From contig NZ_CP095491.1 in assembly GCF_023028105.1 (NCBI RefSeq), forward strand, positions 2,542,001 through 2,606,000: a DNA stretch of 64,000 nucleotides. Reading direction: 5' to 3'. The position numbers and the translations under genes are program-made. Shown in pieces: positions 37,687 through 52,504 of the stretch. The notes below the pieces were generated by a model. The model did not search any database. It was not told the DNA's origin and saw only the letters and a program-made list of their open reading frames with translations. Within the stretch, counting starts at the first letter, position 1. The number at the start of each line of letters is the position of its first letter. This stretch comes from Halosolutus gelatinilyticus. Its GTDB lineage: Archaea; Halobacteriota; Halobacteria; Halobacteriales; Natrialbaceae.

Positions 37687-38505
37687 TCACACGCTCGGAA
37701 CGCCGACCAGCAGCGTGAACGCGGCGGCGGCGAGCAGGACGACGCCCCAGGCGAGGGCGACGTCATCGCTCTCGGGCGCCACGCGTTCGAGCACGACGAC
37801 GACCGTCAGGCCGATCATGACGGAGAGGTTCATCGACCCGAGCGCGACCATCACCGCGAACAGGGGCCAGGTGCAGCCGACGCAGTTGACGGCGTACTCG
37901 AGTCCCGTCCGGACCATGCGGGTGACGTCCGGATGGTGCGGGATCGATCGACAGCACGCACAGCGTTCGAGCAGATCGCGTTTCAGCGACGTGAACTGGT
38001 AGCCGCCGGCGAAGGCGAACAGGCCGGCGACCACCACCGATCCTGCGCTCCACCCGAGCGCGGATTCGGTCACCAGATCGTGAATCGGAACCACGTACTG
38101 GACCGCCAGCGGGACGGCCCCGACGAGCGTCCATACGAGCCCGTACGCGCCGAGGAAGGCGGCGATCGAGCGGATGAAGAGGGTCGAATCGTCACAAATC
38201 TCCTCACGATACCGTCGGACGGCGGGAACGAGCGACGGCAGCATCATCGCCAGCATCATCGTTCCCCATATGAGCAGGTACGCGGTGACGCCGGTGAGTC
38301 CGTTCGCCGTCGCCATCGCCTCGGGGACGCCGGGTGCGTCCATCGGCGCCTCGAGATCGGCCGGAGCGGGACCAAGGCCGGGAAGCCACCCTTCGAGCAG
38401 GACGAGCCACAGGAACGCGGCGAGCGAGAGCACGAACGTGTCCGCGAGCGGAGGGCTATCGAGATCGATACGACTAACGACGGTGCGAAGTGTATCGGAA
38501 ACCAT
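37687..38505 (-). CDS. DUF2182 integral membrane protein
   Basis: Predicted metal-binding membrane protein of the DUF2182 family. The 272 residues form about seven helices. The family features are the MMLAMMLPSL helix, the YQFTSLKRDLLERCACC segment with clustered cysteines, and the following NCVGCTWP motif with further cysteines. Methionine- and cysteine-rich helices suggest copper or another soft metal, though no function is established. It is the last gene of the minus-strand arm, 80 bp after the propeller gene. Confidence 0.85.
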   Translation of the reverse strand: MVSDTLRTVVSRIDLDSPPLADTFVLSLAAFLWLVLLEGWLPGLGPAPADLEAPMDAPGVPEAMATANGLTGVTAYLLIWGTMMLAMMLPSLVPAVRRYREEICDDSTLFIRSIAAFLGAYGLVWTLVGAVPLAVQYVVPIHDLVTESALGWSAGSVVVAGLFAFAGGYQFTSLKRDLLERCACCRSIPHHPDVTRMVRTGLEYAVNCVGCTWPLFAVMVALGSMNLSVMIGLTVVVVLERVAPESDDVALAWGVVLLAAAAFTLLVGVPSV

Positions 38506-38585: not shown

Positions 38586-39758
38586 TCACGGCGATCGATC
38601 GCGTTCGAGGATGACGCCGCCGGCGCCGACGGCGACGTCGACGGGGCTGGTCGCGAGTCCGCCGTCGACGTCGTCGCTCGATCGGGCGAGCGCGAGACCC
38701 TGCAACGATTGTTCGGTGGGGGTGTCCAGTTCGGCCCAGCGGACGCTCTCCTCGCGGCGGTAGATCCGTCCGCCGGTCGCGACCGCGACGGCGCCGGTAC
38801 CGCGCGCCTGGATCGCCTGGAGAGCGCCCTGGCCGACGTGCAGCGGCGTCCAGTTCTCGCAGTCGGGATCGTACCGGTAGGCGATGCCGTCGGCGCCGGC
38901 GATGTAGACGGCGCCGTCGCCGGCCCAGATATCCTGGAAGTCGACCTGCGCGTTCCGGACGCCGATCCGTTCCCACCGATCGGACGAGGTGCTCTCGGTA
39001 TCGGAGGTCGATTCGCCGTTTTCGTCTCGATCCGCGGATTCTCGGTACGCGCCGCCGCTGGTGTCGACGGCGCAGAATCCGTCCGGCCCGGCCGTCAACC
39101 CGGGAACCGTCGACCCGCCGCCGGGTTCGACCACGTCGCCCCAGGTCGGGCAGCCGTCCTCGACGGTGCAATCGAGCACCTCGCCGGAGCCGTTCGCGAT
39201 CCGGACGCGCTCCTCGCCGGTCGATCCGGTGACGGCGATCGCCTCCCAGGTGCTCGTCTTCTCCATCGGCGCCGAGTAGTCGCTGAGGCGCCCGTCGACC
39301 ACGTCGTAGCAGCCGAGCGCGCCGCTGTCGCCGGCGAACCAGAGCCGACAGCCGTCGTCGGTCGCCGCGACGTCGCGGAGGGTGTTTTCCGACACACCCG
39401 GCCCGCGCTCGAGGACGACCTGCCAACCGTCATCACCCCGGTGGAGCAGGAGCCCGCCCTCGCCGCAGGCGTAGGGTCCGTCGTGGCCGTGGACGACGGC
39501 GTGGAGGGCGCGCGACGTGGGCGATTCGGCGGCGCCCCATCCGCCGGTGCCGTCGTTCGTCCCGGTATCCGCGTCGTCGCTCTCGTCTCCATCCCCGTCG
39601 CTCGACCGATCGTCAGCGGCGTCGACGACCGGCAGCCGGACTTCGTCCTCGTTCGCGCCGTCGCCGCTCGAGTCGTCGGACGCCACCCGGTCCGGCAAGC
39701 CGACATCCTGGAGCCAGTCGAGCGCGTCGGACAGCGAGTCGTCGACGCGATCGATCAT
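38586..39758 (-). CDS. Cytoplasmic beta-propeller protein, paralogue of the lipoprotein at 50567
   Basis: A 390-residue acidic protein without a signal peptide. The first 80 residues contain a short amphipathic start (MIDRVDDSLSDALDWLQDVG) and a long Asp/Gly/Ser linker. Then come about six repeats of the BNR/Ycf48-like kind, for example YACGEGGLLLHRGDDGW and WFAGDSGALGCYDVV at 140-154. It shares ordered motifs with the lipoprotein encoded at 50567-51547, including GDSGALG and DYSAP.EKT. Its ATG overlaps the stop of the glutamate-dehydrogenase-like gene by 4 bp, so the two are probably made together. Confidence 0.75.
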   Translation of the reverse strand: MIDRVDDSLSDALDWLQDVGLPDRVASDDSSGDGANEDEVRLPVVDAADDRSSDGDGDESDDADTGTNDGTGGWGAAESPTSRALHAVVHGHDGPYACGEGGLLLHRGDDGWQVVLERGPGVSENTLRDVAATDDGCRLWFAGDSGALGCYDVVDGRLSDYSAPMEKTSTWEAIAVTGSTGEERVRIANGSGEVLDCTVEDGCPTWGDVVEPGGGSTVPGLTAGPDGFCAVDTSGGAYRESADRDENGESTSDTESTSSDRWERIGVRNAQVDFQDIWAGDGAVYIAGADGIAYRYDPDCENWTPLHVGQGALQAIQARGTGAVAVATGGRIYRREESVRWAELDTPTEQSLQGLALARSSDDVDGGLATSPVDVAVGAGGVILERDRSP

Positions 39759-41029
39759 CGAATCACCTCGTGGGCCGCCGCGACGCGGGAACAGCCGACG
39801 CTGTAGGCTGCCTCGCGCCAGCTCAGGTCGCACCGGTCGCGACGATCCCGGACATCGTCGACGGCGTCGGCGAGCGCGTACCGGAACTCGTTGCCCACGC
39901 GCGCGTCGCTCATTCGGTCGCGGCCGACGCTCTGGACCCACTCGAGGTGGGCCGCGATCATCCGACCGGCCGTCGCCAGCACCGCGGGGACGACGGTGAC
40001 GCCTCGCTCTTCGAGGGTGCGCTGGCCGCCGGGCGTCACGCTGCCGACGGTGCCCTCGACGACGAGATCGGCTCGAATCCCGTCGGCATTCTCGGCGGTC
40101 ACCGTCGTCGCGGGGTCGGCGAGGAGCAGGGCGTCGACGTCGTGCTCGAGGACGTTTCTCGTGCCGGTCACCGTCCCGCCGTCGAACTCCGCGAGCGTCC
40201 CCGGCCGCCGGAGGTAGCTGGGGGCGAGGTTCGTGTCGAGCCCCGTTTCGTCGGCGGCGGCGAGTCCCGCGCCGTCGCCGCACATCGCGACGATGGTCCC
40301 GCCGCGGAACTCGAGCAGTCGGGCGGCCGTCGAGCCGACGGTGCTGGTGCCGTAGACGGCGATCGTCGCGTCGGACAGCGGTCGAGCGCGGTCCGTCTCG
40401 AGGACGTCCTGGGCGACGGTCGCGACGCTGTGGGCTCCGGGCTCGGAGAGTTCGCGGAACCCGCCGATCGCCGGCGGTTTGCCGGCGACCGTCGCCCGAG
40501 CCGGAGCGTCGACGCGATCGGTGATGGCGTCGGCGATCCGCGCCATGGTTCGCCGATCGGTGCCGACGTCCGGCATGAAGACGTCGCCGTCGCTGTCGAC
40601 GCCGGTGATTCGGGTCGCGTACGCTCGAGTGAGCCGCGCCCGTTCGTCCCGGGAGAGTTCCGCGGGATCGACCGCGATCCCGCCCGCGGCGCCGCCGAAC
40701 GGCACGTCGGCGATCGCCGCGCTGACGGTCGCCGCGGCCGCGAGGCCGGCGCAGTCGTCGCCGTTCAGCGCGGGGAAGTACCGGTGCGGGCCCGCGGGCG
40801 GTCCGCGGACGGTCTCGTGGCGAACGCGGTACCCCTCGCAGACGTCGTACGCCCCGTCGTCGCGTTCGAACGGGACCGAAATCCGCTCGCGTTGACGCGG
40901 GTGGAGGAACCGCTGCTCGATGTCGTCGGGGAGGCCGAGACGGTGCGCGGCGGTTGTCGCGTACGTCCACGGCGCTTCGAGATCGGGTGCTGTTCGACTG
41001 GTGTCGTCCGAAGAACTGTATGCTGACAT
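39755..41029 (-). CDS. Glutamate-dehydrogenase-like protein lacking the catalytic lysines
   Basis: A 424-residue protein alignable over its whole length with hexameric Glu/Leu/Phe/Val dehydrogenases (YDVCEGYRVRHETVRG, then DVPFGGAAGGI, FMPDVGT and AGKPPAIGG). The three conserved lysines of the active site are replaced. GPYKGG is GPPAGP (Ala79), the TWK lysine is Ser103, and the GGAKGG catalytic lysine is Ala115. Asp154 of PDVGT is retained. The Rossmann motif is also altered (YGTSTVG). A working amino-acid dehydrogenase is therefore unlikely; a binding or regulatory role is more plausible. It is coupled to the propeller gene downstream. Confidence 0.82.
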   Translation of the reverse strand: MSAYSSSDDTSRTAPDLEAPWTYATTAAHRLGLPDDIEQRFLHPRQRERISVPFERDDGAYDVCEGYRVRHETVRGPPAGPHRYFPALNGDDCAGLAAAATVSAAIADVPFGGAAGGIAVDPAELSRDERARLTRAYATRITGVDSDGDVFMPDVGTDRRTMARIADAITDRVDAPARATVAGKPPAIGGFRELSEPGAHSVATVAQDVLETDRARPLSDATIAVYGTSTVGSTAARLLEFRGGTIVAMCGDGAGLAAADETGLDTNLAPSYLRRPGTLAEFDGGTVTGTRNVLEHDVDALLLADPATTVTAENADGIRADLVVEGTVGSVTPGGQRTLEERGVTVVPAVLATAGRMIAAHLEWVQSVGRDRMSDARVGNEFRYALADAVDDVRDRRDRCDLSWREAAYSVGCSRVAAAHEVIR

Positions 41030-41168
41030 TACGAATCGATGGGTTCGGATCAGTTGCATCGGCGATCGCGACCGTCAGCCGGCTGTGTCGAGAACTGCGT
41101 CCGGCAGCTGGCGAGAGCTGCCTCGAACCGACCCTCCGCGATCGCCGCCAGGAGCGGCCGCAGAGCGC

Positions 41169-41531
41169 TTACTGATCGCAGCGGAGACAGCGCCGTTCCC
41201 ACTCGTGGTGCTCCTCGAGTCGCTTGTTGGCTCGTGTACTGGGCCGATAGGCGTTGGTACGACCGTCGAGCGGGTACTTCTCAACGTACCCTTCTTCGAC
41301 GAGTTCGCCGAGGTTCTGGTAGAGCCGTCCCTGGTTGATCTCCTCGTCGTAGTAACAGTCCAGTTTGTCCTTGATGACGAGGCCGTGTGGGTTTCGGGCC
41401 GCGAGCATCCGAATGACGAACAGTTGGTCGCGCTTGAAGCCCGTGAGGTCCGTCAGCGGACGCGCACAGCCGGTCTTTTTTGTGCTCGATTCTTCACCGT
41501 CGTAGGCGTTCGATTGCGTGCGATTGGACAT
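41169..41531 (-). CDS. PadR-family transcriptional regulator
   Basis: A 120-residue winged-helix repressor. It has the PadR core (FKRDQLFVIRMLA, then GRLYQNLGELVEEGYVEKYPLDGRTNAY) and ends in a short CLRC pair. The pair might bind metal or respond to thiols, which is inferred. It is placed in the middle of the minus-strand arm, upstream of the dehydrogenase-like gene and downstream of the oxidase subunit I gene, so it may control this locus. Confidence 0.88.
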   Translation of the reverse strand: MSNRTQSNAYDGEESSTKKTGCARPLTDLTGFKRDQLFVIRMLAARNPHGLVIKDKLDCYYDEEINQGRLYQNLGELVEEGYVEKYPLDGRTNAYRPSTRANKRLEEHHEWERRCLRCDQ

Positions 41532-41615: not shown

Positions 41616-41942
41616 TCAGGGACCGTGTTCGAGCCGATGTTCCCGGTACAGAACGACGACGAACGCCCCGAGCGGGACGAGTCCGAGAACGACGAGCAAT
41701 AGCGCTGCGTAGATCGCCGTCGACAACCCGACCGCCGTCACGAAGTAGGCCAGAACGCCGATCGCGGCCGCGATCAGCAACAGGACGCTCGAGAGCACGA
41801 GGGCGAAGCTCACCTTGCGGAGCTGCCACTCGAGGTTCTCGGATCGGCGGAGCTGTTCGATGAGGACGACTGTCGGCGGGATCGTCAGCGCGATCAGTTG
41901 CAAGAGCATCAGTGCGACGTCGGTGTTTGCGGTGGTTGACAT
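41616..41942 (-). CDS. Small membrane protein, unknown function
   Basis: A 108-residue protein with about three predicted helices (about residues 10-28, 45-68 and 72-98) separated by a charged segment (EQLRRSENLEWQLRKV). Similar small proteins occur widely in haloarchaea without assigned function. It is 140 bp after the oxidase subunit I gene and 84 bp before the PadR gene, all on one strand. Confidence 0.65.
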   Translation of the reverse strand: MSTTANTDVALMLLQLIALTIPPTVVLIEQLRRSENLEWQLRKVSFALVLSSVLLLIAAAIGVLAYFVTAVGLSTAIYAALLLVVLGLVPLGAFVVVLYREHRLEHGP

Positions 41943-42081: not shown

Positions 42082-43659
42082 CTACTCGGTCGACTCGGCC
42101 GCGGTATCCCACTCGCGAGCGTGCGATGGGCCGTCAGCGAGATCCCACGGGTCGGCGGGAGCGGACGCGGGCTCGCCGGCCCGCAGCGATCGGGCGAGGT
42201 TCCAGAGGAAGACGAGCTGGCCGCCGGCGATGACGTAGGCGCCGACGGTCGCGAGTTGCTGCAGCGGCGCGTACGTCGCCGGATACGTCGCGATGCGCCG
42301 CGGGAGCCCCGCGAGGCCGACGAGCAGGAGGGCGCCGAACGTGACGGCGACGCCGACGATCGTGAGCCGGACGTGCAGGCGGGCGAGCCCCGGCTCGAGG
42401 CGCCGTCCGGTCAGCAGGGGTGCCCAGTAGTATCCCCCGGCGACGAGCGCCAGTGCGACGAAGCCGGCGAGCAGCAGGTGAAAGTGCGCGACGACGTAGT
42501 AGGTGCCGTTGTACCGCACGTTGATCGGCACGACGGCGAGGAGGACGCCGGTGACGCCGCCGACGACGAAGAAGCCGACGGCGGCGAGACAGGCGAGCAT
42601 CGGCGCAGTGTGCCGAATCGCGCCGCCCCACAGCGTCGCGAGCCACGTGCAACACTTCGCCGAACTCGGCAGGGCGATCGCCAGCGTGACGACCATGAAG
42701 ACGACCCGAACGGACGGTCCCGTGGCGGCGACGAACAGGTGGTGTCCCCAGACGGTGAACGAGAGGACGCCGATCGCGAGCGTCGAGTAGACGGACGATC
42801 GCCACCCGAACAGCCGTCGACCGGCGAACCGCGGGAGGACGTGGCTGACGATACCCATCGGCGGTAACACCAGCACGTACACCAGCGGGTGGGCGAAGAA
42901 CCAGAACACCTGCTGCCAGCTCGTTGGCCCGCCGCCGGCGACGAAGTACGTCGTTCCGATCGTCCGATCGGCGAGCAACAGCGTCGCCGCGAACGCCAGG
43001 ACCGGAAACGCGACCACCGTCATCGCCGCGCTCGTCAGAACCGTCCAGGTGAACGTGTCCACGTCGCGCCACCGAACGTCGCGGCGCCACAGGATCGTCG
43101 CGGCGAGGTTCGCGGCGGTCGCCGCCGACCCAACGGCGACGAGCAGGAGTCCGACGAGTAGGGCGTCGACGGCGGGATTCCGCGACAGGGCGCTCAGCGG
43201 CGGGTACAGCGTCCACCCGGTCGCGACCGGCTCGAGGCCCGCCACACCGAGGATGCCGCCGAGGGTGCCCGCGCGGATCGCCAGCGCCGCCGGCACCTGC
43301 GACCAGAACGCCGCGGTGCCGAGCGCGGGGAACGCGGTCCCCTCGGCCTCGATCAGCGGCGGCACGGCGGCGTACGCGACGCCCCAGATCGCCGGCAGCG
43401 CGAACAGGAACAGCATCGTCAGCCCGTGGGTCGTGAAGAGGGCGTTGTAGGTCTCGGCCGAGACGAGATCCTGCCACGACGTGACCAGCGCCGTCCGGAG
43501 CAACAGGGCGTCGAACCCGCCCCACAGGCCGAACGCCAGCGCGAACCCGAGGTACCAGCGGGCGAGCCGCCGGTGATCGACCGCGACCCTCGTCGCGCCG
43601 GCCGACCCGATCGCGCGGGCCGCACTCTCGAGGGCGCGCCGCGGCGTGGACCGCGTCAT
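42082..43659 (-). CDS. Divergent heme-copper oxidase subunit I
   Basis: Catalytic subunit of a terminal oxidase. The 525 residues form about 12 helices with all metal ligands: His78 (low-spin heme), His257, His306 and His307 (CuB), His392 and His394 (heme a3 and heme a positions), Tyr261 and the K-channel Lys335. Several otherwise conserved A-type residues are changed. HPEVY is HPLVY (Leu259), the D-channel Asp is Gly107, and the His-Asp pair of the Mg/Mn site before TYYVVAHFH is Asn384-Gly385. It starts within the stop of the MFS-like gene (4-bp overlap). The likely subunit II is encoded at 51617. Confidence 0.88.
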   Translation of the reverse strand: MTRSTPRRALESAARAIGSAGATRVAVDHRRLARWYLGFALAFGLWGGFDALLLRTALVTSWQDLVSAETYNALFTTHGLTMLFLFALPAIWGVAYAAVPPLIEAEGTAFPALGTAAFWSQVPAALAIRAGTLGGILGVAGLEPVATGWTLYPPLSALSRNPAVDALLVGLLLVAVGSAATAANLAATILWRRDVRWRDVDTFTWTVLTSAAMTVVAFPVLAFAATLLLADRTIGTTYFVAGGGPTSWQQVFWFFAHPLVYVLVLPPMGIVSHVLPRFAGRRLFGWRSSVYSTLAIGVLSFTVWGHHLFVAATGPSVRVVFMVVTLAIALPSSAKCCTWLATLWGGAIRHTAPMLACLAAVGFFVVGGVTGVLLAVVPINVRYNGTYYVVAHFHLLLAGFVALALVAGGYYWAPLLTGRRLEPGLARLHVRLTIVGVAVTFGALLLVGLAGLPRRIATYPATYAPLQQLATVGAYVIAGGQLVFLWNLARSLRAGEPASAPADPWDLADGPSHAREWDTAAESTE

Positions 43660-45044
43660 CGGTCGCCGTCGCGGCCGAACGTGAACGCCCGCCCCAGCTC
43701 GCGAACGCCGAGCAGGCCGACCGTCGTCGCGGCGGTGAACGCGGCGAGGGGGTCGACCGCGTACAGGAGCCCGCCGATCAGCGGCGCGGGGACGACGGCG
43801 ATCCGGACCGCCGTTCGAACCGTCTCAGGGAGTTCCGATCCCGGAATCGGCGCGGCTCGGGCGCTCGCCCCGACGGTCGGTCGCAGCGGCTCGATCGCAG
43901 TGCGACAGCCGAACAGCGCGAACAGCGCGGCGACGACGCCGGGGCCCTTCGGTGCCGCCACGAGCGCCATCGGGACCAGCGACGCGACCGCGAGCCCGAC
44001 GGCGAGCAACGCCCGCCGATCGACTCGCGAGGCGAGCGGACCGGAGCCGAGGGCGCCGAGGATCGCACCGCCCGCCTCCGCGAGGAGGAACAGCCCGAAG
44101 ACGGCCGCCGGAGCCAGCGAGAAGCCGCCGATCGAGAGGCCGATCGACTCGTACTCGACGACCAGGAGGACCAGAAACGGCGCGATCCCGGCGATCGCGA
44201 CCCGGACGAGTCCGTCGCCGATGACGGCCCACCGTCTTCGGTCCGGCAGTCTCGAGACGCCGTTTCGAACGGTCTCGAGCGATCGATCGTCGCCGGCCGC
44301 GGTCTCGATCGCGCCGCCGGTCGCTCGATCGCCGGCGGTCGTCGCGCCGTCGACGACAGTGCTCAGCGCGACCGCCCCGACGAGCGCGACCGCGGCGCCG
44401 GCCGCGGCGACGAGCGCGATACCGGCGGAGACCGTATCGGCGCCCGCGACGGCGGCCGTCGCGATCACCGCGGCGACGGCGATTCCGAGCGCGCCGAGCA
44501 CGACTGCGGTTCGCCGATCCGGTCGCACCCCGGTCGCGCCCGCGGCCTGGTCCGCGTCCGCGGTTCCGTCCGACCGATCGTCGTCTCCGACGGGGCTTCT
44601 CCAGAACGGCGACACGCGGGTGTCGATCGGCCAGAAGTGACGCGTCGGACCGCGGGCGTGCCACGCCTGGAGGAGCACGACGCCGATCGCGAGCCACCCC
44701 AGCGCCGAGAGGGGCGTTCCGAGCAGGCCGTCGAGCGTCGGCGCGCCGGTCCAGGTGAGCAGCCCGGCGGCGGCGAGTAGCGCCGAGAGGGCTGCGACCG
44801 CCCGCTCACGATCGCGTTCGTCGACGCCCGCGGTCGAGCGCTCCGCCGCGACGGCGGCGATACCGAGTCCGAGCGTCGCCAGCGCGCCGACGACGATCGG
44901 CCCGTAGCCGAGGGCGACCACGAACTCGGGAAGGTAGCGTTCGGTCACGCGGATCAGCCCGTGGCTCGCCGCGAGCGCGGCGAGGGTGACCAGTCGGGCC
45001 GGATCGGACTGTTCGCCGGCTGTCGCTATCGGTGGTGGCATCAT
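43656..45044 (-). CDS. MFS-like multi-pass membrane protein
   Basis: A 462-residue protein with about 12 hydrophobic helices in two halves and a hydrophilic loop of 30-35 residues around position 155. The layout is that of the major facilitator superfamily, and the second half (LFLLAEAGGAILGALGSGPLASRVDRR) carries a degenerate MFS loop motif. The substrate is unknown. It lies 67 bp after the UPF0718-type permease and overlaps the oxidase subunit I gene by 4 bp. A link to oxidase assembly, for example metal or heme handling, is inferred only from this coupling. Confidence 0.7.
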   Translation of the reverse strand: MMPPPIATAGEQSDPARLVTLAALAASHGLIRVTERYLPEFVVALGYGPIVVGALATLGLGIAAVAAERSTAGVDERDRERAVAALSALLAAAGLLTWTGAPTLDGLLGTPLSALGWLAIGVVLLQAWHARGPTRHFWPIDTRVSPFWRSPVGDDDRSDGTADADQAAGATGVRPDRRTAVVLGALGIAVAAVIATAAVAGADTVSAGIALVAAAGAAVALVGAVALSTVVDGATTAGDRATGGAIETAAGDDRSLETVRNGVSRLPDRRRWAVIGDGLVRVAIAGIAPFLVLLVVEYESIGLSIGGFSLAPAAVFGLFLLAEAGGAILGALGSGPLASRVDRRALLAVGLAVASLVPMALVAAPKGPGVVAALFALFGCRTAIEPLRPTVGASARAAPIPGSELPETVRTAVRIAVVPAPLIGGLLYAVDPLAAFTAATTVGLLGVRELGRAFTFGRDGDR

Positions 45045-45111: not shown

Positions 45112-46626
45112 TCACTTCAGGCCGCGGTCCTCGAGCGCGTAGGCGATCCGCCGGAGGACGAGGTAGGATCGGATGAGAACGCCGGCGACGTGGGGAGCCA
45201 GCCGGTTTCCGAGCCGCCGCCGCTGGGCCGGCTCGAGGGCGGCGTACAGTTGGACCGCGAGGATCGGGAGGGTGACGACGTTGAGCAGGGCCGTGTACGT
45301 CCCGGGGACGGTGCCGCCGGCCTCGGACACGGGCGGAATCAGACCCAGACCGCCGAACAACAGCTGGACGGCGAGACCGGCGGTGACCGCCGCGAGGAAG
45401 AACCCGACGAAGATCACGCCGGCCATGCGGGTGCCGTAGTACCGGCGGTAGGTGCGGACCAGCGGCAGGATCAGCAGGTCGGCGAAGATGAACGAGAGGA
45501 CGCCGCCGAAGGAGACGCCGTTCTGCCAGAGCACGACCGCAAAGGGGACGTTGCCGACGGAACAGAGGAACGTCAACACGCCGACGACGGCGCCAAGCAC
45601 GACGTTCGAGACGAGCCGAACGGCGCTTCCCTCGGCGCCGACGCCGAAGACGGCGGTCCACCAGGCGGTGGGAACCAACGCGGCCAGCAGGCCGGCGATG
45701 AGGAACCCCAGCGCGATGTCCCGCCAGAGCATGTCCCACTCGCGAATCGTGTTCGCGGCCGCCGATCGCCAGCGATCGCCCGAGAAGAGTTCGGGGCCGG
45801 CGGTGACCGCCTCTCGGTCGGTCGTCGGATCGTACGCACCGCGACAGCCGTCACAGCAGAAGTACCGCCGTTCGCCGTCGAACTCCCGCACGACGGTGTC
45901 CTCGTCGGTCGGATCCGCGCGCATCCCACAGGTCGCACACTCGATCTCCTCGAGCGACCGCGCGCGAGACCGCGCGCGCTCGATCCACGACTCGGGAACG
46001 AACCGCCGGTAGACGATCGCGAGGACGACGATCGCGACGAGCCCGCCGACGATCTCGGCGGCCGCGAACTGCCAGCCCAGCAGGAGCAACACGACGAGGG
46101 CGAGTTCGAGGACGAGATCGGTGCTCGCGAACTGGAACGCGCCCAGGCTGGCCGCGGCCGACGCGCCCTTCGTGAACAACGACCGCGTCGTCGCGACCGC
46201 GGAGAACGAGCAACTCGAGGACGAAGCCCCGAAGAACGACCCGTAGGCGACCGCTCTCCAGTCGTCGTCACCGAGGTAGTCGGTGAGCCGGTCCGCGGAG
46301 ACGAACTCCTGGACGGCGCCGGTGATCGTGAAGCCGAGCACGAGCGCCCACCACGTCTCCCAGGCCATCTCGAAGGCGATGATCGCCCCCTCGACGATAC
46401 CCAGGAGAACGGCGCCGAGCAGGCCGACGAGCCGAGCTGCGAGCTCGAGGCTGCTTCCGGCCGCGTGCGGGCGAGCGAACCGGGCGCCGACTACCGAACC
46501 GTCGACGACCGGTTCGAAACCGAGCGGCCACTGATCGATCGCCAGGAGCGCTAGCGTGGGGACCAATCGTCCGTATACGTGTCCGACGGTGGACGCGTCG
46601 GTAAGCGTGTGTGTCGCCGAAAGCAT
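45112..46626 (-). CDS. UPF0718/ArsP-type permease with an internal YHS-like metal domain
   Basis: A 504-residue permease of the DUF318/UPF0718 family, related to ArsP. The two family half-motifs are present: SSSSCSFSAVATTRSLF near residues 135-151 and CSVGNVPFAVVLW in the second half, each followed by the FAS or FAD helix. Between the halves (about 228-270) lies a soluble cysteine domain with CATCGM (Cys230, Cys233) and FCCDGC (Cys257, Cys258, Cys261), a YHS/TRASH-like metal-binding module. Export of a soft metal or metalloid compound is likely. It is the first gene of the minus-strand arm. Confidence 0.82.
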   Translation of the reverse strand: MLSATHTLTDASTVGHVYGRLVPTLALLAIDQWPLGFEPVVDGSVVGARFARPHAAGSSLELAARLVGLLGAVLLGIVEGAIIAFEMAWETWWALVLGFTITGAVQEFVSADRLTDYLGDDDWRAVAYGSFFGASSSSCSFSAVATTRSLFTKGASAAASLGAFQFASTDLVLELALVVLLLLGWQFAAAEIVGGLVAIVVLAIVYRRFVPESWIERARSRARSLEEIECATCGMRADPTDEDTVVREFDGERRYFCCDGCRGAYDPTTDREAVTAGPELFSGDRWRSAAANTIREWDMLWRDIALGFLIAGLLAALVPTAWWTAVFGVGAEGSAVRLVSNVVLGAVVGVLTFLCSVGNVPFAVVLWQNGVSFGGVLSFIFADLLILPLVRTYRRYYGTRMAGVIFVGFFLAAVTAGLAVQLLFGGLGLIPPVSEAGGTVPGTYTALLNVVTLPILAVQLYAALEPAQRRRLGNRLAPHVAGVLIRSYLVLRRIAYALEDRGLK

Positions 46627-46877: not shown

Positions 46878-47321
46878 TCATCGCGTCAGCAACCCGATCG
46901 TTCGGTGGCGGTTGTACAGGTAGACGACGCAAACCGTTACCGTCGAGAGGAGAAACGCGACGATCGCGATCGCGAGGGCGACGCCGAATCCGGCCGCCAG
47001 TCCGGAGAGGACGGCGAGAAGCAGCGGGGCGGCGACGGCCGTACCGACGTAAATTTCGCGATCCGGCGTCCAGTCGTCGGTTTCAGTCGCGACGAACTCG
47101 ACGTCGCGCCAGATCGCGGGGAGCGTGACGGCTCCAGCGGCGGTGATCACGATCAGAAGCGCGACGCCGCCGAGACTCGAGGCCAGCACCGAACCGCCGC
47201 CGGTGAGGCGAGCGAGCGAGACAATCCCGAGCAGGCTCAGCGCCGGGTAGCCGATCAGGACGTACCAGTACCACGGATATCGGTCGATCGAATCGATGGA
47301 CGGAAGTTCACCACGTGACAT
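46878..47321 (-). CDS. Membrane protein, unknown function
   Basis: A 147-residue protein with about four helices (about residues 18-38, 45-68, 88-108 and 110-132) and a conserved-looking amphipathic start, DSIDRYPWYWYVLIGYP. The ATG at 47321 is preferred; TATA-like ACTTATCC lies about 33 bp upstream on the minus strand. No family recognised. Confidence 0.62.
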   Translation of the reverse strand: MSRGELPSIDSIDRYPWYWYVLIGYPALSLLGIVSLARLTGGGSVLASSLGGVALLIVITAAGAVTLPAIWRDVEFVATETDDWTPDREIYVGTAVAAPLLLAVLSGLAAGFGVALAIAIVAFLLSTVTVCVVYLYNRHRTIGLLTR

Positions 47322-47425
47322 GGTGCATCCGCCGTTCGCCTCGCCGACGGATAAGTCGTCCAAATTCCTAACTTTTCCGCACAAAATCACTGCATTCGGA
47401 CAGTAAGTTTCCCTACGGGTCAGCA

Positions 47426-47433
47426 AATTTATT
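47426..47433 (+). promoter_or_regulatory. TATA box of the zinc-ribbon gene at 47452
   Basis: AATTTATT lies 19-26 bp before the GTG at 47452. This spacing favours the GTG over the downstream ATG at 47533 as the start. Confidence 0.4.
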
Positions 47434-47451: not shown

Positions 47452-48099
47452 GTGTCATCTTATGACCCTGGCACCGCTATCCCGGCGTGCCCGGTCGGAC
47501 CGCACCGACGGTTCGATCGACCACCCAAACACATGATTGGTGAACACGCATTCTGTCCGACCAGCGGTGCATCTCTCTCGCGAGAGATCCACTACGACGA
47601 CTGCGGCCGCCCCGAGCGCGTCCCCCAGTCCGACGACCTCGCACCGAACGCGACCCTCGACGCCCCGCTGACGACCGGGAAACGCCGCTCTTCGAGGCGT
47701 GCGCTGCTCACGTACTTTCGGCGGTGTCACCGCCGACACGCCGACGCGGACGACGATCTCTACCGTCGCGTCGCGACCGCGCTCGGCCGCCTCAAGCGAA
47801 CGGCGTCTGGCCGCGAGGAACGCGACATAATCGTCTGGTTCGCGCTGGGCGAACGGCTCACGTGCGACGGATTCGACGTGTCGTGGATGACAGCTCACGT
47901 CGAACCCCGGTGTCCGGATTGCGGCAGTCGGCTGGCGTACGTCGACGGGCCCGACGGCCTGGTCGGCCGCTGCGGTAGTTCGTGCCGGGACCGACGGGAC
48001 GATCGCCTCGACGAGATTCGGACCGCCGTTCGATCGTTGTTCGCGCGAACGTATCCCAACGACGTGCCCCCTGAAACGGATGCGCTCGCACTACTGTGA
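47452..48099 (+). CDS. Zinc-ribbon protein, unknown function
   Basis: A 215-residue hydrophilic protein. A C-terminal zinc ribbon is visible at about 149-174 (CPDCGSRLAYVDGPDG then CGSSC), and the N-terminus has another cysteine near FCPTSG. The middle is basic (RRALLTYFRRCHRRHADAD). A GTG start at 47452 fits the promoter spacing; the ATG at 47533 would remove 27 residues. It overlaps or nearly touches the DUF389 gene, so it may lead the plus-strand arm. No family recognised. Confidence 0.65.
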   Translation: MSSYDPGTAIPACPVGPHRRFDRPPKHMIGEHAFCPTSGASLSREIHYDDCGRPERVPQSDDLAPNATLDAPLTTGKRRSSRRALLTYFRRCHRRHADADDDLYRRVATALGRLKRTASGREERDIIVWFALGERLTCDGFDVSWMTAHVEPRCPDCGSRLAYVDGPDGLVGRCGSSCRDRRDDRLDEIRTAVRSLFARTYPNDVPPETDALALL

Positions 48100-48149: not shown

Positions 48150-49160
48150 ATGCGCCTGCTGACGGTGCTTACCGACTCGCAGTCCGCGACCGACGAGGTC
48201 ATGGCCGTCCTCGAGCGCCACGACCTCACGTACAGCCTCGCCGACGACGCCGACGGCGAGGATCGAACGATCACGATTCCCGCCCCCGAGCACGCGGTCG
48301 AACCGCTGGAAGACGATCTGACGTCGGTCCCTTGCGACATTACGATCGTCGTCGAGGAACCGATGGCGGTCGTCGGCAGCGACTGGGAGGGGCCGTCCCC
48401 GCGGCAGGGAGAGTGGCTCTCGTTCGAACGCATCTCCAGGAGCGAGCTCCGGTCGAAAGCCCGATCCCAGTTGCCGTCGCTGGTCATCTTCGTCGCGATG
48501 ACCGCGATCAGCGGCGTCGTCGCCACCACCGGCGTCCTCCTGAACTCGATTGCGGTGCTGGTCGGCGCGATGGTGATCGCGCCGCTGCTGGGACCGGCGA
48601 TGGCCTCGAGCGTCGCGACCGTCCTCGACGAACGCCGGCTCTTCGCCCGCGGCGTCAAACTCCAGTTAACCGGAATCGGCGTCGCGACGACGAGCGCGCT
48701 CGTGTTCGCGATGTTCGCGCGGACCTCGACGGTCGTCGCGACCGCCGTCGATCTCGAGGCCAGCCTCGGGCTGGGCAGTCATGGCCTGCCGCCGTCACTG
48801 CTCGTGACCGTCGCGGTCTGCTCCGGCATCGCCGGCGGCCTCGGCATGGCGACGACCGGCATCACCGACCTCATCGGCGTGATGATCGCGGCCGCGATCA
48901 TGCCACCGATCGGCGTCGTCGGCGTCGGCGTCGCCTGGGGCGAACCCGTGGTGGTCCTCGGCTCGCTCGTCGTCGTCGCGGTGAACCTCATCGCGATCAA
49001 CGTCGGCGCGATCGCGACCCTCTGGACCGTCGGGTTCCACCCCACGGACCACTCGCGGATCAGAACGACCAGGGCCGCCATCCTCCGGCGCACCGCCCTG
49101 TTGACCGTCCTGCTGTTGATCGCGCTCCGACTGCTCGAGGTCGTCTCCAACGGCCTCTGA
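48150..49160 (+). CDS. DUF389 (TIGR00341-type) membrane protein
   Basis: A 336-residue protein. A soluble alpha/beta N-terminal domain of about 90 residues (MRLLTVLTDSQSATDEVMAV onward) is followed by about six helices with the DUF389 hallmarks LVGAMVIAPLLGPAMA and GVMIAAAIMPPIGVVGVG. The family is widespread, and no function is established. The ATG at 48150 matches the start of homologues; a GTG at 48096 overlapping the previous stop is the alternative. A 24-bp gap separates it from the next gene. Confidence 0.86.
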   Translation: MRLLTVLTDSQSATDEVMAVLERHDLTYSLADDADGEDRTITIPAPEHAVEPLEDDLTSVPCDITIVVEEPMAVVGSDWEGPSPRQGEWLSFERISRSELRSKARSQLPSLVIFVAMTAISGVVATTGVLLNSIAVLVGAMVIAPLLGPAMASSVATVLDERRLFARGVKLQLTGIGVATTSALVFAMFARTSTVVATAVDLEASLGLGSHGLPPSLLVTVAVCSGIAGGLGMATTGITDLIGVMIAAAIMPPIGVVGVGVAWGEPVVVLGSLVVVAVNLIAINVGAIATLWTVGFHPTDHSRIRTTRAAILRRTALLTVLLLIALRLLEVVSNGL

Positions 49161-49184: not shown

Positions 49185-50567
49185 ATGTCTGACGCCCCAT
49201 CACCATCCGCACCCGATACCGATCGATCGAACGACGGCGACGAACACCCGGTTCGCGACGGTGCTGACCGCGATGCTGACAACGGCGACGACCGCGACGA
49301 CGAACGGTCGATCGGCTTGTCGATCGTCGGCTATGCGCTTCGACTGGCCGTCGCGGCGGTGCTGATCGTCGGCCGGCTCCTGTGGACCGGCGTCCGCATC
49401 GGATCTCGGCTGCTCACCGACACGGCGTCGCGCCGCGAGTGGCGCCGCTGGCTCCTGCTCGAGGGCGACCGCCGCGCGATCGTCGGCGCCTTCGTCGTCG
49501 GCGTCTTCGCCCTGGCCCTGCTCCTCGGGGTCAGCGACGTCATCGGCGTCCGCGAGAGCCGGTTCGTCACGACGATGTTCAGTACGATGATCGCGGGGCT
49601 GTTCTCGTTCATCCCGATCGTCGTCTCGGTCAACCAGCTGATCATCTCGCGGCTGTTCGGCACGCCCGATCGGCTCACCGAGCGCATCGACGGCGTCCAG
49701 GAGTTTCGCAGCCGCGTCGAGACCCAGACCGAGGGCGACGGCGTCAGTCCGACCGATCCCGCGGCCTTCCTCGCTCGACTCGCGGGGACGCTCGGCAGCC
49801 GCGCCGACGAACTCGCGACCGTGTGCGGGGACGACGCGACCGATCGATCGGACGAGGGATTTCTCGGTGACGGTCGGCCCGGTGAGGGGGCGACACCGAC
49901 CGCCGCCCTCGAGTCGATCTGTCGCTTCGCGGCCAACACGCGCGAGCACGCCCGCGATCTCTCTGCGCAGCTCACCGGCGAGACGGAGTCGGTGTTCGAC
50001 GTCGTGTTGCCGACGATCAACCACGATTACGCCGGCGCCGCCAACGAGGCGCGGCGGCTCGGACGGCGGTTCGACGAGAACCTGTCAGACCGATCCGCGG
50101 CGCTGCTTGCGGAGCTCCGGGAACTGTTCGTCACCGCCGACGCGACGCGTCAGTACTTCACGACGATCTACCTGCAGCGCGAGCTCGCGCGGCTGTCGCG
50201 GCTGATCACCTACAGCGGCACCGCCGCGATCTTGCTCTCGTCGCTGGTCATCATGATCTACGCGAGCGGCTACCCGCCGGTCGCCTTCGAGGGGTGGCTG
50301 CTCGTCCTCGTGAGCCTCGCGCTCGCGGTCGCCTTCAGTCCCCTCGCGGTCCTCTTCGCGTACGTCGTTCGCGTTTCGGCCATCCTCAAGCGAACCTCCG
50401 CGCCGGGCGCGTTCACGCCGTCGGGCGAGTACCACCGCACGAACGAAGTCGACGTCGACGATCCGCACGCGACCGGGACCGACGCCGACGGCGATCGCTC
50501 CGCACGCTCGAGCGAGACCGAGGGCGAAGACGGAGACGAGACCGAAAGTGACGGCGAGGGGAACTAA
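49185..50567 (+). CDS. Four-helix membrane protein with acidic ends, unknown function
   Basis: A 460-residue protein. After an acidic N-terminus of about 42 residues come two helix pairs: about 44-66, then 97-116 and 128-150, and finally two helices at about 343-395. The central 190-residue soluble part (RFVTTMFSTMIAG... to the TRQYFTTIYLQRELARL segment) is helical. The C-terminus is Asp/Glu-rich. Similar proteins occur in haloarchaea next to transporters, without assigned role. Its stop codon overlaps the next ATG by one base, so it is coupled with the propeller lipoprotein gene. Confidence 0.72.
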   Translation: MSDAPSPSAPDTDRSNDGDEHPVRDGADRDADNGDDRDDERSIGLSIVGYALRLAVAAVLIVGRLLWTGVRIGSRLLTDTASRREWRRWLLLEGDRRAIVGAFVVGVFALALLLGVSDVIGVRESRFVTTMFSTMIAGLFSFIPIVVSVNQLIISRLFGTPDRLTERIDGVQEFRSRVETQTEGDGVSPTDPAAFLARLAGTLGSRADELATVCGDDATDRSDEGFLGDGRPGEGATPTAALESICRFAANTREHARDLSAQLTGETESVFDVVLPTINHDYAGAANEARRLGRRFDENLSDRSAALLAELRELFVTADATRQYFTTIYLQRELARLSRLITYSGTAAILLSSLVIMIYASGYPPVAFEGWLLVLVSLALAVAFSPLAVLFAYVVRVSAILKRTSAPGAFTPSGEYHRTNEVDVDDPHATGTDADGDRSARSSETEGEDGDETESDGEGN

Positions 50568-51547
50568 TGCCCGATCGTCGTTCGTGCACTCGTCGCGCCG
50601 TCCTCGCATCGATCGGCGCCGGGGTCGGCTCGCTGTCGATCGCCGGCTGCGTCGACGTCGATCCCGACAGCGAATGGGTCGCCGCCGACGTGCCCACCGA
50701 CGCGGCGCTGTACGACGTCGTGACGACGGCCGGCGGGGTCTACGCCGTCGGCGAAGACGGCGTCGTCCTCGCGCGCGACGGTGACGACTGGACCGTCCGC
50801 CTCGAGAACGGGATCGGCGGTGCGGGAGACGGGCTCCGCACCGCGGCGGTGACGAGCAACGGGCGGGCGATGTGGGTCGCCGGCGACAGCGGCGCGCTCG
50901 GACTGTACGACGTCGTCGCCGACCACGTCGCGGACTTCTCGGCCCCGGAGGAGAAGACGACCTCCTGGACGGCGGTCGCGGCCGCCGGACTGGCCGGCGA
51001 CGAGCGGCTGACGGTCATCAACAGCTCCGGGGAACTCCTCCGTGGGCGGCGCGACGACGCGACCGTCGAGTGGTTCGACGTCGTCGAACCCGGCTCCGGC
51101 TCGAGCGTCACCGACGTCTCGCTCACCCCGCTGGCGTACGGCTACGTCGTCGATACCGACGGCGGCGTCTTCGAGTCCCGAGACGGCGGCGTCTCCTGGA
51201 GCCGGATCGGAATCGCGGACGCGGCGATCGACTTCGAAACGGTCGCGGCCTCCGACTCGGGCCACGTTACGGTCGCGGGCGGGAACGGCACCGTCTACAC
51301 CTACAACGGCGTCGACTGGTCCCGGACGACCCTCGGCGAGCAGCCGATCGCGGCGCTCGCGCGCGATCGCTACGACGCGATGGCCGTCTCGTCTTCGGGG
51401 ACGATCTACGAGCGCGGGTTCGATGGCTGGAGCGAATCCGCGCGACTCGAACCCGGGAACGAACTGCACGCGGTCGCGCTCGGAACCGCCCGCACGCCGC
51501 AACTGGTCGTCGGCGAGTCCGGAACGGTGTTCGAGCGGCGGTACTAA
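50567..51547 (+). CDS. Tat-exported lipoprotein with a beta-propeller domain
   Basis: A 326-residue protein. The N-terminus has a twin-arginine motif (RRAVLA) and a lipobox ending at Cys28 (SIAGC), so it should sit on the outer face of the membrane. The rest consists of about six BNR/Ycf48-like blades (GGVYAVGEDGVVLARDGDDW; WVAGDSGALGLYDVV at 103-117; GGVFESRDGGVSW). It is a paralogue of the cytoplasmic protein at 38586-39758. It follows the four-helix protein with a 1-bp overlap and precedes the oxidase subunit II gene by 69 bp. Confidence 0.82.
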   Translation: MPDRRSCTRRAVLASIGAGVGSLSIAGCVDVDPDSEWVAADVPTDAALYDVVTTAGGVYAVGEDGVVLARDGDDWTVRLENGIGGAGDGLRTAAVTSNGRAMWVAGDSGALGLYDVVADHVADFSAPEEKTTSWTAVAAAGLAGDERLTVINSSGELLRGRRDDATVEWFDVVEPGSGSSVTDVSLTPLAYGYVVDTDGGVFESRDGGVSWSRIGIADAAIDFETVAASDSGHVTVAGGNGTVYTYNGVDWSRTTLGEQPIAALARDRYDAMAVSSSGTIYERGFDGWSESARLEPGNELHAVALGTARTPQLVVGESGTVFERRY

Positions 51548-51616: not shown

Positions 51617-52504
51617 ATGTCCATCCGTTCACGATTCGAAACGAACGCTTCCCGCGGTGCGCTCGGCCGACCGCGCTCGATGCGACGAGCGATCGAGGCG
51701 ATTGGCCGCGCCGCGGCCGACAGCCCGAAGCGCTCGACGGCGCTCGCCCGGATCGCCGTATTCGGGAGTTGCTCGCTCGCGGCCGTCCCGTTCGCGACGG
51801 AATCAGCCGCTGCACAGTCGGTGAACAGGAACCTCATCGAATCGCTCCACGTTCGGTTGCTCGCGATCGCGGTTCCGCTGACGCTGGCCGTGCTGGCTTT
51901 TCTCGCGTACGCCGCCGTTCGCTTTCGGGAGCCGGCGGGCGCGAACGGCGCCGAACCGGAGCCCACGCCCGAGAAGCCGTCGCTCGAGATCGCGTGGGTC
52001 GCGGCGACGGCCGCCGTTCTGCTCGTCGTGGCCCTCTGGGCGTACCCGGTGCTCGCCACCCCCTATCTCTCGCCGGGAGGCCAGTCGGCGGGGACCGAAG
52101 CGACTCCGGGCGCGGAATCGAACGTCACCGAAATCGAGGTCGTCGCCTCGCAGTGGGCGTGGCAGTTCACGTACGACGAGGCGAACGTCACGACGCGGAA
52201 CGAGCTGGTGGTGCCGGTCGACGAGGAGGTGCGCCTCGTCATGACCTCGCGGGACGTGATCCACGCGTTCTCGATCGCCGACCTCGGCGTCAAGCGGCAG
52301 GTATTTCCCGGCGAGAAGACGGTGATCCGGACTCGCGTTCACGAGCGCGGCGAGTACCGCGCTCGGTGCACCGCGTTCTGCGGCGCCCGCCACGCTCAGA
52401 TGGAGGCGAACGTGACGGCCGTCGATCGCGAGACGTACGACGCGTGGCTCGCCGAGCACGAGGGGGAGACCGATCCCGACCCGCCGGATCCGCCCGCAGG
52501 GTGA
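51617..52504 (+). CDS. Cytochrome c oxidase subunit II
   Basis: Electron-entry subunit of a heme-copper oxidase. The 295-residue protein has a probable signal or first hydrophobic segment (about 45-66), two helices (about 81-101 and 127-148) and a cupredoxin domain. The CuA ligands are complete: His216, Cys251, Cys255, His259 and Met262, with the aromatic electron-entry patch SQWAWQF present. The glutamate of the usual CxExC motif is alanine (Ala253), removing the subunit II ligand of the Mg/Mn site. No subunit III or cytochrome c gene is adjacent. Partner subunit I is probably the one at 42082-43659. Confidence 0.88.
   Translation: MSIRSRFETNASRGALGRPRSMRRAIEAIGRAAADSPKRSTALARIAVFGSCSLAAVPFATESAAAQSVNRNLIESLHVRLLAIAVPLTLAVLAFLAYAAVRFREPAGANGAEPEPTPEKPSLEIAWVAATAAVLLVVALWAYPVLATPYLSPGGQSAGTEATPGAESNVTEIEVVASQWAWQFTYDEANVTTRNELVVPVDEEVRLVMTSRDVIHAFSIADLGVKRQVFPGEKTVIRTRVHERGEYRARCTAFCGARHAQMEANVTAVDRETYDAWLAEHEGETDPDPPDPPAG

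Follow-up and report, generated by a model that had tools for sequence, protein, structure and literature searches.

A conserved clade of putative glutamate dehydrogenase pseudoenzymes encoded in a haloarchaeal oxidase and metal-handling gene cluster

Glutamate dehydrogenase (GDH) is a textbook enzyme. The GDH homologue encoded at positions 39755 to 41029 of the stretch of the Halosolutus gelatinilyticus genome analyzed here (64,000 nucleotides, referred to as the window) belongs to a real, conserved clade of pseudoenzymes, here called pGDH. Its non-catalytic status is well supported by the residues at the active site, and we strongly infer from the same residues that dehydrogenase activity has been lost. 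Its partner and role we infer from the gene cluster in which it lies: pGDH is probably a partner protein or regulator without catalysis. The explanation that we favor, and hold to be reasonably probable, is that pGDH serves a haloarchaeal haem-copper-oxidase/metal-handling cluster as a dedicated part with no enzymatic activity and acts through assembly with cluster partners.

The protein is a full-length homologue of Glu/Leu/Phe/Val dehydrogenases and is matched end to end by both Pfam GDH domains (ELFV_dehydrog_N, PF02812, 6e-31, 107 bits with a cut-off of 25; ELFV_dehydrog, PF00208, 5e-30, 105 bits with a cut-off of 23). Its best family model is that of haloarchaeal GdhB (the GdhB_Halo equivalog NF041398), which covers residues 25 to 422; the score of 320 bits is below its cut-off of 620. 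The window genome also encodes three lysine-intact GDHs; identity to the lysine-intact paralogue L003 is 41%. A distant Leu/Val-dehydrogenase-like gene is present there as well (L005); its open frame of 568 amino acids includes lysine motifs, for example MTYKAA and GGGKA.

Active-site residues were numbered as in C. symbiosum GDH (Lys89, Lys113, Lys125, Asp165, and Ser380). In an alignment with haloarchaeal GDHs, Lys89 is replaced by Ala79, Lys113 by Ser103, and Lys125 by Ala115, exactly as numbered in a first-pass annotation made from the sequence alone. The analysis likewise bore out its reading of the GxGxxG dinucleotide (Rossmann) loop as GTSTVG (residues 227 to 232) and of an intact frame with end-to-end GDH homology. 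A further change went unnoticed there: the equivalent of the substrate-binding Ser380 is Ala360. The catalytic Asp, described as retained, is indeed present in the window protein as D154 of PDVGT (the D165 equivalent), but it is not retained across the clade, in which this position is Asp in 57% and otherwise Gly, Glu, or Asn. Unlike GdhB, pGDH has no active-site lysines, no Ser380, and an eroded GxGxxG, and it falls short of a catalytic glutamate dehydrogenase at the lysines, at the Asp and Ser380 pair, and at GxGxxG. An AF2 model gave the N-terminal domain at low confidence, probably because of a shallow alignment, and the fold match of the model to GDHs adds nothing beyond the sequence result.

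When the protein was searched against 125 genomes of its family, which named matches identify as Natrialbaceae, 23 sequences (that of the window among them) were recovered at 57 to 100% identity and one at 47% (Saliphagus, G120), below which came canonical GDHs at about 43% identity or less. These orthologues occur in 24 genomes of 8 genera (an alignment scan named Natrinema, Haloterrigena, Natrialba, Halobiforma, Halovivax, Natronoglomus, and Saliphagus as hosts), and the lysines are absent from all 24. A 25th, far-diverged copy was found via its cluster in genome G001 (L136, 12617 to 13918, forward strand); its lysines are likewise gone and Gly stands at the catalytic Asp position, but GYGAVG and Ser380 are kept. 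A profile run against 392 genomes from the order found no close pGDH member outside Natrialbaceae, scores dropping from 659 to 409 bits, where canonical GDHs start. The lysines are lost in 25/25 cluster pGDHs and in 0/53 other haloarchaeal GDHs sampled, which include two lysine-intact GDHs encoded in clusters. Three Natrialba proteins (L027, L030, and L031) have ~15 to 34 residues of acidic, low-complexity sequence inserted into the C-terminal (Rossmann) domain, following an AGLAAD-type segment.

The genes around pGDH, which include those for an oxidase and for metal handling, are listed below; this setting is new and was overlooked in the first-pass annotation.

37687 to 38505, reverse strand: PpoB2 membrane protein (Pfam "Copper chaperone," PF09948, 2.2e-41)
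38586 to 39758, reverse strand: beta-propeller protein, 390 amino acids, with an N-terminal helix, a low-confidence acidic linker, and the propeller (fold model)
39755 to 41029, reverse strand: pGDH, lysine-less GDH homologue, 424 amino acids (open reading frame, Pfam, and alignment); an alternative in-frame ATG is possible at 41059, 10 codons upstream
41169 to 41531, reverse strand: PadR-family regulator (PadR, 7.5e-08; synteny)
41616 to 41942, reverse strand: c8TM, small hydrophobic, probably membrane protein, 108 amino acids (conserved in the cluster)
42082 to 43659, reverse strand: COX1, haem-copper oxidase subunit I (COX1, 2.4e-116; CtaD, 484 bits, cut-off 671)
43656 to 45044, reverse strand: MFS-like transporter, overlapping COX1 by 4 nt (weak MFS_1 match below cut-off; synteny)
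45112 to 46626, reverse strand: ArsP-type permease (ArsP_1, 1.2e-64)
46878 to 47426, reverse strand: c6TM, membrane-like protein of unknown family, 147 to 182 amino acids depending on the start (synteny)
47533 to 48099, forward strand: c10, divergent conserved flank gene, zinc-ribbon-like (conserved flank)
48150 to 49160, forward strand: TIGR00341/DUF389 membrane protein (conserved flank)
49185 to 50567, forward strand: u460, conserved membrane-like protein of unknown family (conservation)
50567 to 51547, forward strand: propLP, second propeller, lipoprotein-like (YCF48 family PSII_BNR, 7.2e-09; conserved)
51680 to 52504, forward strand: COX2, cytochrome c oxidase subunit II (8.6e-16)

The order c6TM, ArsP permease, MFS-like, COX1, c8TM, PadR, pGDH, propeller, PpoB2 is found in 24/24 genomes, except that c8TM is uncalled in 2 genomes and PpoB2 is present in 17/24 and unseen in 7. 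On the opposite flank lie TIGR00341, u460, and the second, YCF48-like propeller; COX2 occupies its position in the window and in L243 and L245 and is absent from most other genomes looked at. With linkage in 24/24 genomes, we reject a chance association of pGDH with the cluster. The coupling of pGDH to the propeller gene pointed out in the first-pass annotation is a 4-nt stop/start overlap (ATGA or GTGA) that recurs in all 24 orthologous loci, and the gene immediately upstream of that for GDH encodes PadR in 27/27 cluster copies. The ArsP-type permease contains an internal TRASH-like metal-binding segment (C-x2-C and C-x3-C), its TRASH match being below cut-off. In Natrinema zhouii the pGDH locus (L091, NZ_CP084883.1) is on a record titled plasmid unnamed2, so the pGDH cluster may be mobile.

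The product of 42082 to 43659 has the haem and CuB His ligands and the cross-link Tyr of a haem-copper oxidase subunit I, and the corresponding motifs (HGLTM, HP.VY, HH, and H.H) are present in all aligned cluster copies. The Natrialbaceae genomes with a close COX1 orthologue (63 to 80% identity) are precisely the 24 pGDH genomes; G001 has a 54% identical COX1, and the slot of pGDH there holds its diverged GDH without the lysines. The COX1 proteins of pGDH-bearing clusters are also without the HPEVY Glu (the equivalent of proton-channel Glu286), reading HPLVY in 22/24 and HPQVY in 1/24; this Glu is kept in COX1 of pGDH-less clusters and in ordinary CoxA. CcoA is a member of the MFS that imports copper for cbb3 oxidase (PMC5829832), and the cluster MFS-like gene, which overlaps the oxidase gene and lies near a putative copper chaperone, may be likened to it by context; unlike the cbb3 oxidase served by CcoA, the cluster oxidase resembles CtaD/CoxA.

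The product of 38586 to 39758 was modelled as a beta-propeller (mean pLDDT of 79), with Ycf48 among its best PDB matches. The likeness to the photosystem II assembly propellers Ycf48/HCF136 amounts to a TM score of 0.57 to 0.60 by query length at 14% identity, many other propellers score alike, and there is no photosystem. This propeller matches no Pfam family, and so does not reach the cut-off of PSII_BNR (the Ycf48 family), which the second propeller does match. Rate covariation with pGDH gave a partial correlation of 0.02 for the propeller and about 0.4 to 0.5 for COX1 and MFS, although rate correlations between linked genes are weak evidence on partners. The propeller as a proven partner of pGDH is not supported by these rates, and propellers also occur without a GDH.

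With a propeller profile, the cluster was also located elsewhere in the order, in families other than Natrialbaceae; most of these versions have no GDH gene. Since most haloarchaea with the cluster have no GDH in it, pGDH is not essential to the cluster; PadR is kept in most of the GDH-less versions. The haloarchaeal oxidase/ArsP/propeller clusters (L173 to L192 and L136) often encode an HMA protein and, in some cases, a Na+/H+ exchanger-like protein. In two genomes of another family (f17; G233 and G215), the slot after PadR is occupied by a GDH with every catalytic residue intact, whose gene overlaps PadR by 11 nt; one lysine-intact cluster GDH is encoded at L175, 11628 to 12905, reverse strand.

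The first-pass annotation had called for a family tree of haloarchaeal GDH paralogues. In a maximum-likelihood tree of 22 lysine-less rows, the 2 intact cluster GDHs, and 45 canonical rows, the lysine-less rows do form one group, at a weaker support of 93/75, and the intact cluster sisters join them in a single group apart from the canonical rows (support, 99/99). The cluster-GDH clade persisted when the longest branches were removed (SH-aLRT, 100), and a separate recruitment, in which the f17 cluster GDHs would derive from the canonical GDHs of f17, was rejected (AU test, P = 0.0017); long branches are the remaining caution. The tree, together with the intact f17 sisters, points to a single acquisition of a GDH by the cluster: a working enzyme was probably recruited once, and catalysis was then lost in the Natrialbaceae line. 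The intact sisters at the same locus also allow an order of losses to be proposed, in which the lysines and the Asp would have gone first (as in G001, where GxGxxG and Ser380 are kept), the 24-genome clade also being without Ser380 and having an eroding GxGxxG.

Among 23 aligned close orthologues, Ala115 and Ala360 are fixed, and the second Gly of GxGxxG is kept in 61% of the clade. Canonical GDHs have 188 invariant positions; the pGDH clade keeps 69 of these, has a different, fixed residue at 17, and varies at the remaining 102. Fixed swaps near the old pocket include K to A115, S to A360, V to A359, W to A99, C to A104, and G to P81. Judged from the alignment, this pattern is the one expected of a changed but constrained function. 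Omega for ten pGDH pairs was 0.08 to 0.31, or 0.08 to 0.21 without the widest pair (window versus L010), compared to 0.05 to 0.10 for canonical GDHs from these genomes or related ones and 0.11 to 0.37 for the neighboring propeller, COX1, and ArsP genes. The close-pair values, ~1 to 2.5 times those of canonical GDHs of related genomes and not above those of most neighboring genes, indicate purifying selection rather than decay. That pGDH is a decaying, functionless duplicate is therefore scarcely credible, and we reject it: pGDH does diverge faster than canonical GDH, and its catalytic Asp and GxGxxG drift, but 25 frames are open in nine genera, synteny is strict, the gene overlap is conserved, and neither of the marks of a pseudogene, a broken frame or neutral evolution, is found. 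The proposal in the first-pass annotation of selection for a non-catalytic function over decay accordingly stands. Lysine-intact close homologues together with relaxed selection were to count against that proposal; such homologues do occur, in the two f17 genomes, but selection has not weakened to the neutral level.

Other functional explanations were weighed against the one that we favor. pGDH might be a regulatory subunit of canonical GDH, assembling with GdhB into mixed hexamers and coupling the oxidase cluster to nitrogen status. The three lysine-intact GDHs of the window genome would suit such an arrangement, as would R135 and D167, 96% kept in the pGDH clade, which by our own mapping from motif position we take to be the Arg and Asp of the allosteric leucine site. 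The same two residues are, however, invariant in canonical GDHs as well and so are not diagnostic of a Thermus-type subunit, the Saliphagus protein has Ala at R135, positions invariant in canonical GDHs are much changed, and the pGDH gene is tied to the oxidase cluster rather than to gdh genes. On balance we consider a subunit of this kind unlikely, although there is a precedent: GdhA of T. thermophilus is a catalytically inactive regulatory subunit of a hetero-hexameric GDH (PDB 3AOE; PMC9570180). It was the only naturally inactive GDH subunit found in the literature searched, a "pseudoenzyme" remark on S. aureus YwlG being speculation in its source paper. As pGDH is predicted to be, GdhA is a GDH-fold protein that does not catalyze, and it offers by analogy the closest precedent for the working mode, with no claim of membership; GdhA pairs with GdhB, whereas the genetic partners of pGDH are oxidase and metal genes.

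Somewhat less likely again is a ligand sensor that works through the adjacent PadR, the old pocket binding a metabolite without catalysis and transcription of the cluster being controlled in response. The invariable position of PadR, which overlaps the GDH gene in the two lysine-intact clusters, and the fact that several pocket replacements are fixed and not drifting agree with a sensor, but GDH-less clusters mostly keep PadR too. New fixed residues near the pocket (GPHRY and FGGAAGG) could instead mark a different enzyme whose remodelled pocket catalyzes another reaction; Ala, Leu, and Pro make up most of the replacements, His82 is the sole new acid/base group, and the dinucleotide motif is eroding, which makes a new activity very improbable.

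In the explanation that we favor, that of a non-catalytic cluster component, glutamate turnover by pGDH would be abolished, and the protein would assemble as a homo-oligomer or as a hetero-oligomer with a cluster product, which may be the oxidase or its maturation proteins, the propeller, or PadR. The constant adjacency of PadR and the overlap with the propeller gene make these two products candidate partners. The oxidase, the metal permease, and the "copper chaperone" family, with the HMA protein in other versions of the cluster, point to a role in the production or control of the oxidase and of the metal supplied to it, in which pGDH would probably serve as a scaffold or ligand sensor. Judging by the lysine-intact cluster GDHs, the link may at first have been one between glutamate/2-oxoglutarate metabolism and control of the cluster; the structural or regulatory part may then have outlasted catalysis in Natrialbaceae.

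The literature search found no paper on a haloarchaeal GDH pseudoenzyme, and the open-access literature searched held no description of the oxidase/metal cluster, which is widespread in haloarchaea. An entire clade is without the catalytic site and has intact sisters at the same locus, and this setting and these intermediates are of greater interest than the residue losses themselves. As a tentative fuller account, a GDH recruited one time, at first catalytic (as it apparently still is in the two f17 genomes), may have become a pseudoenzyme subunit or sensor that controls assembly of an unusual oxidase. If so, these haloarchaea would hold a living series from an active to a structural GDH at one locus, and a link between GDH and respiration is made testable.
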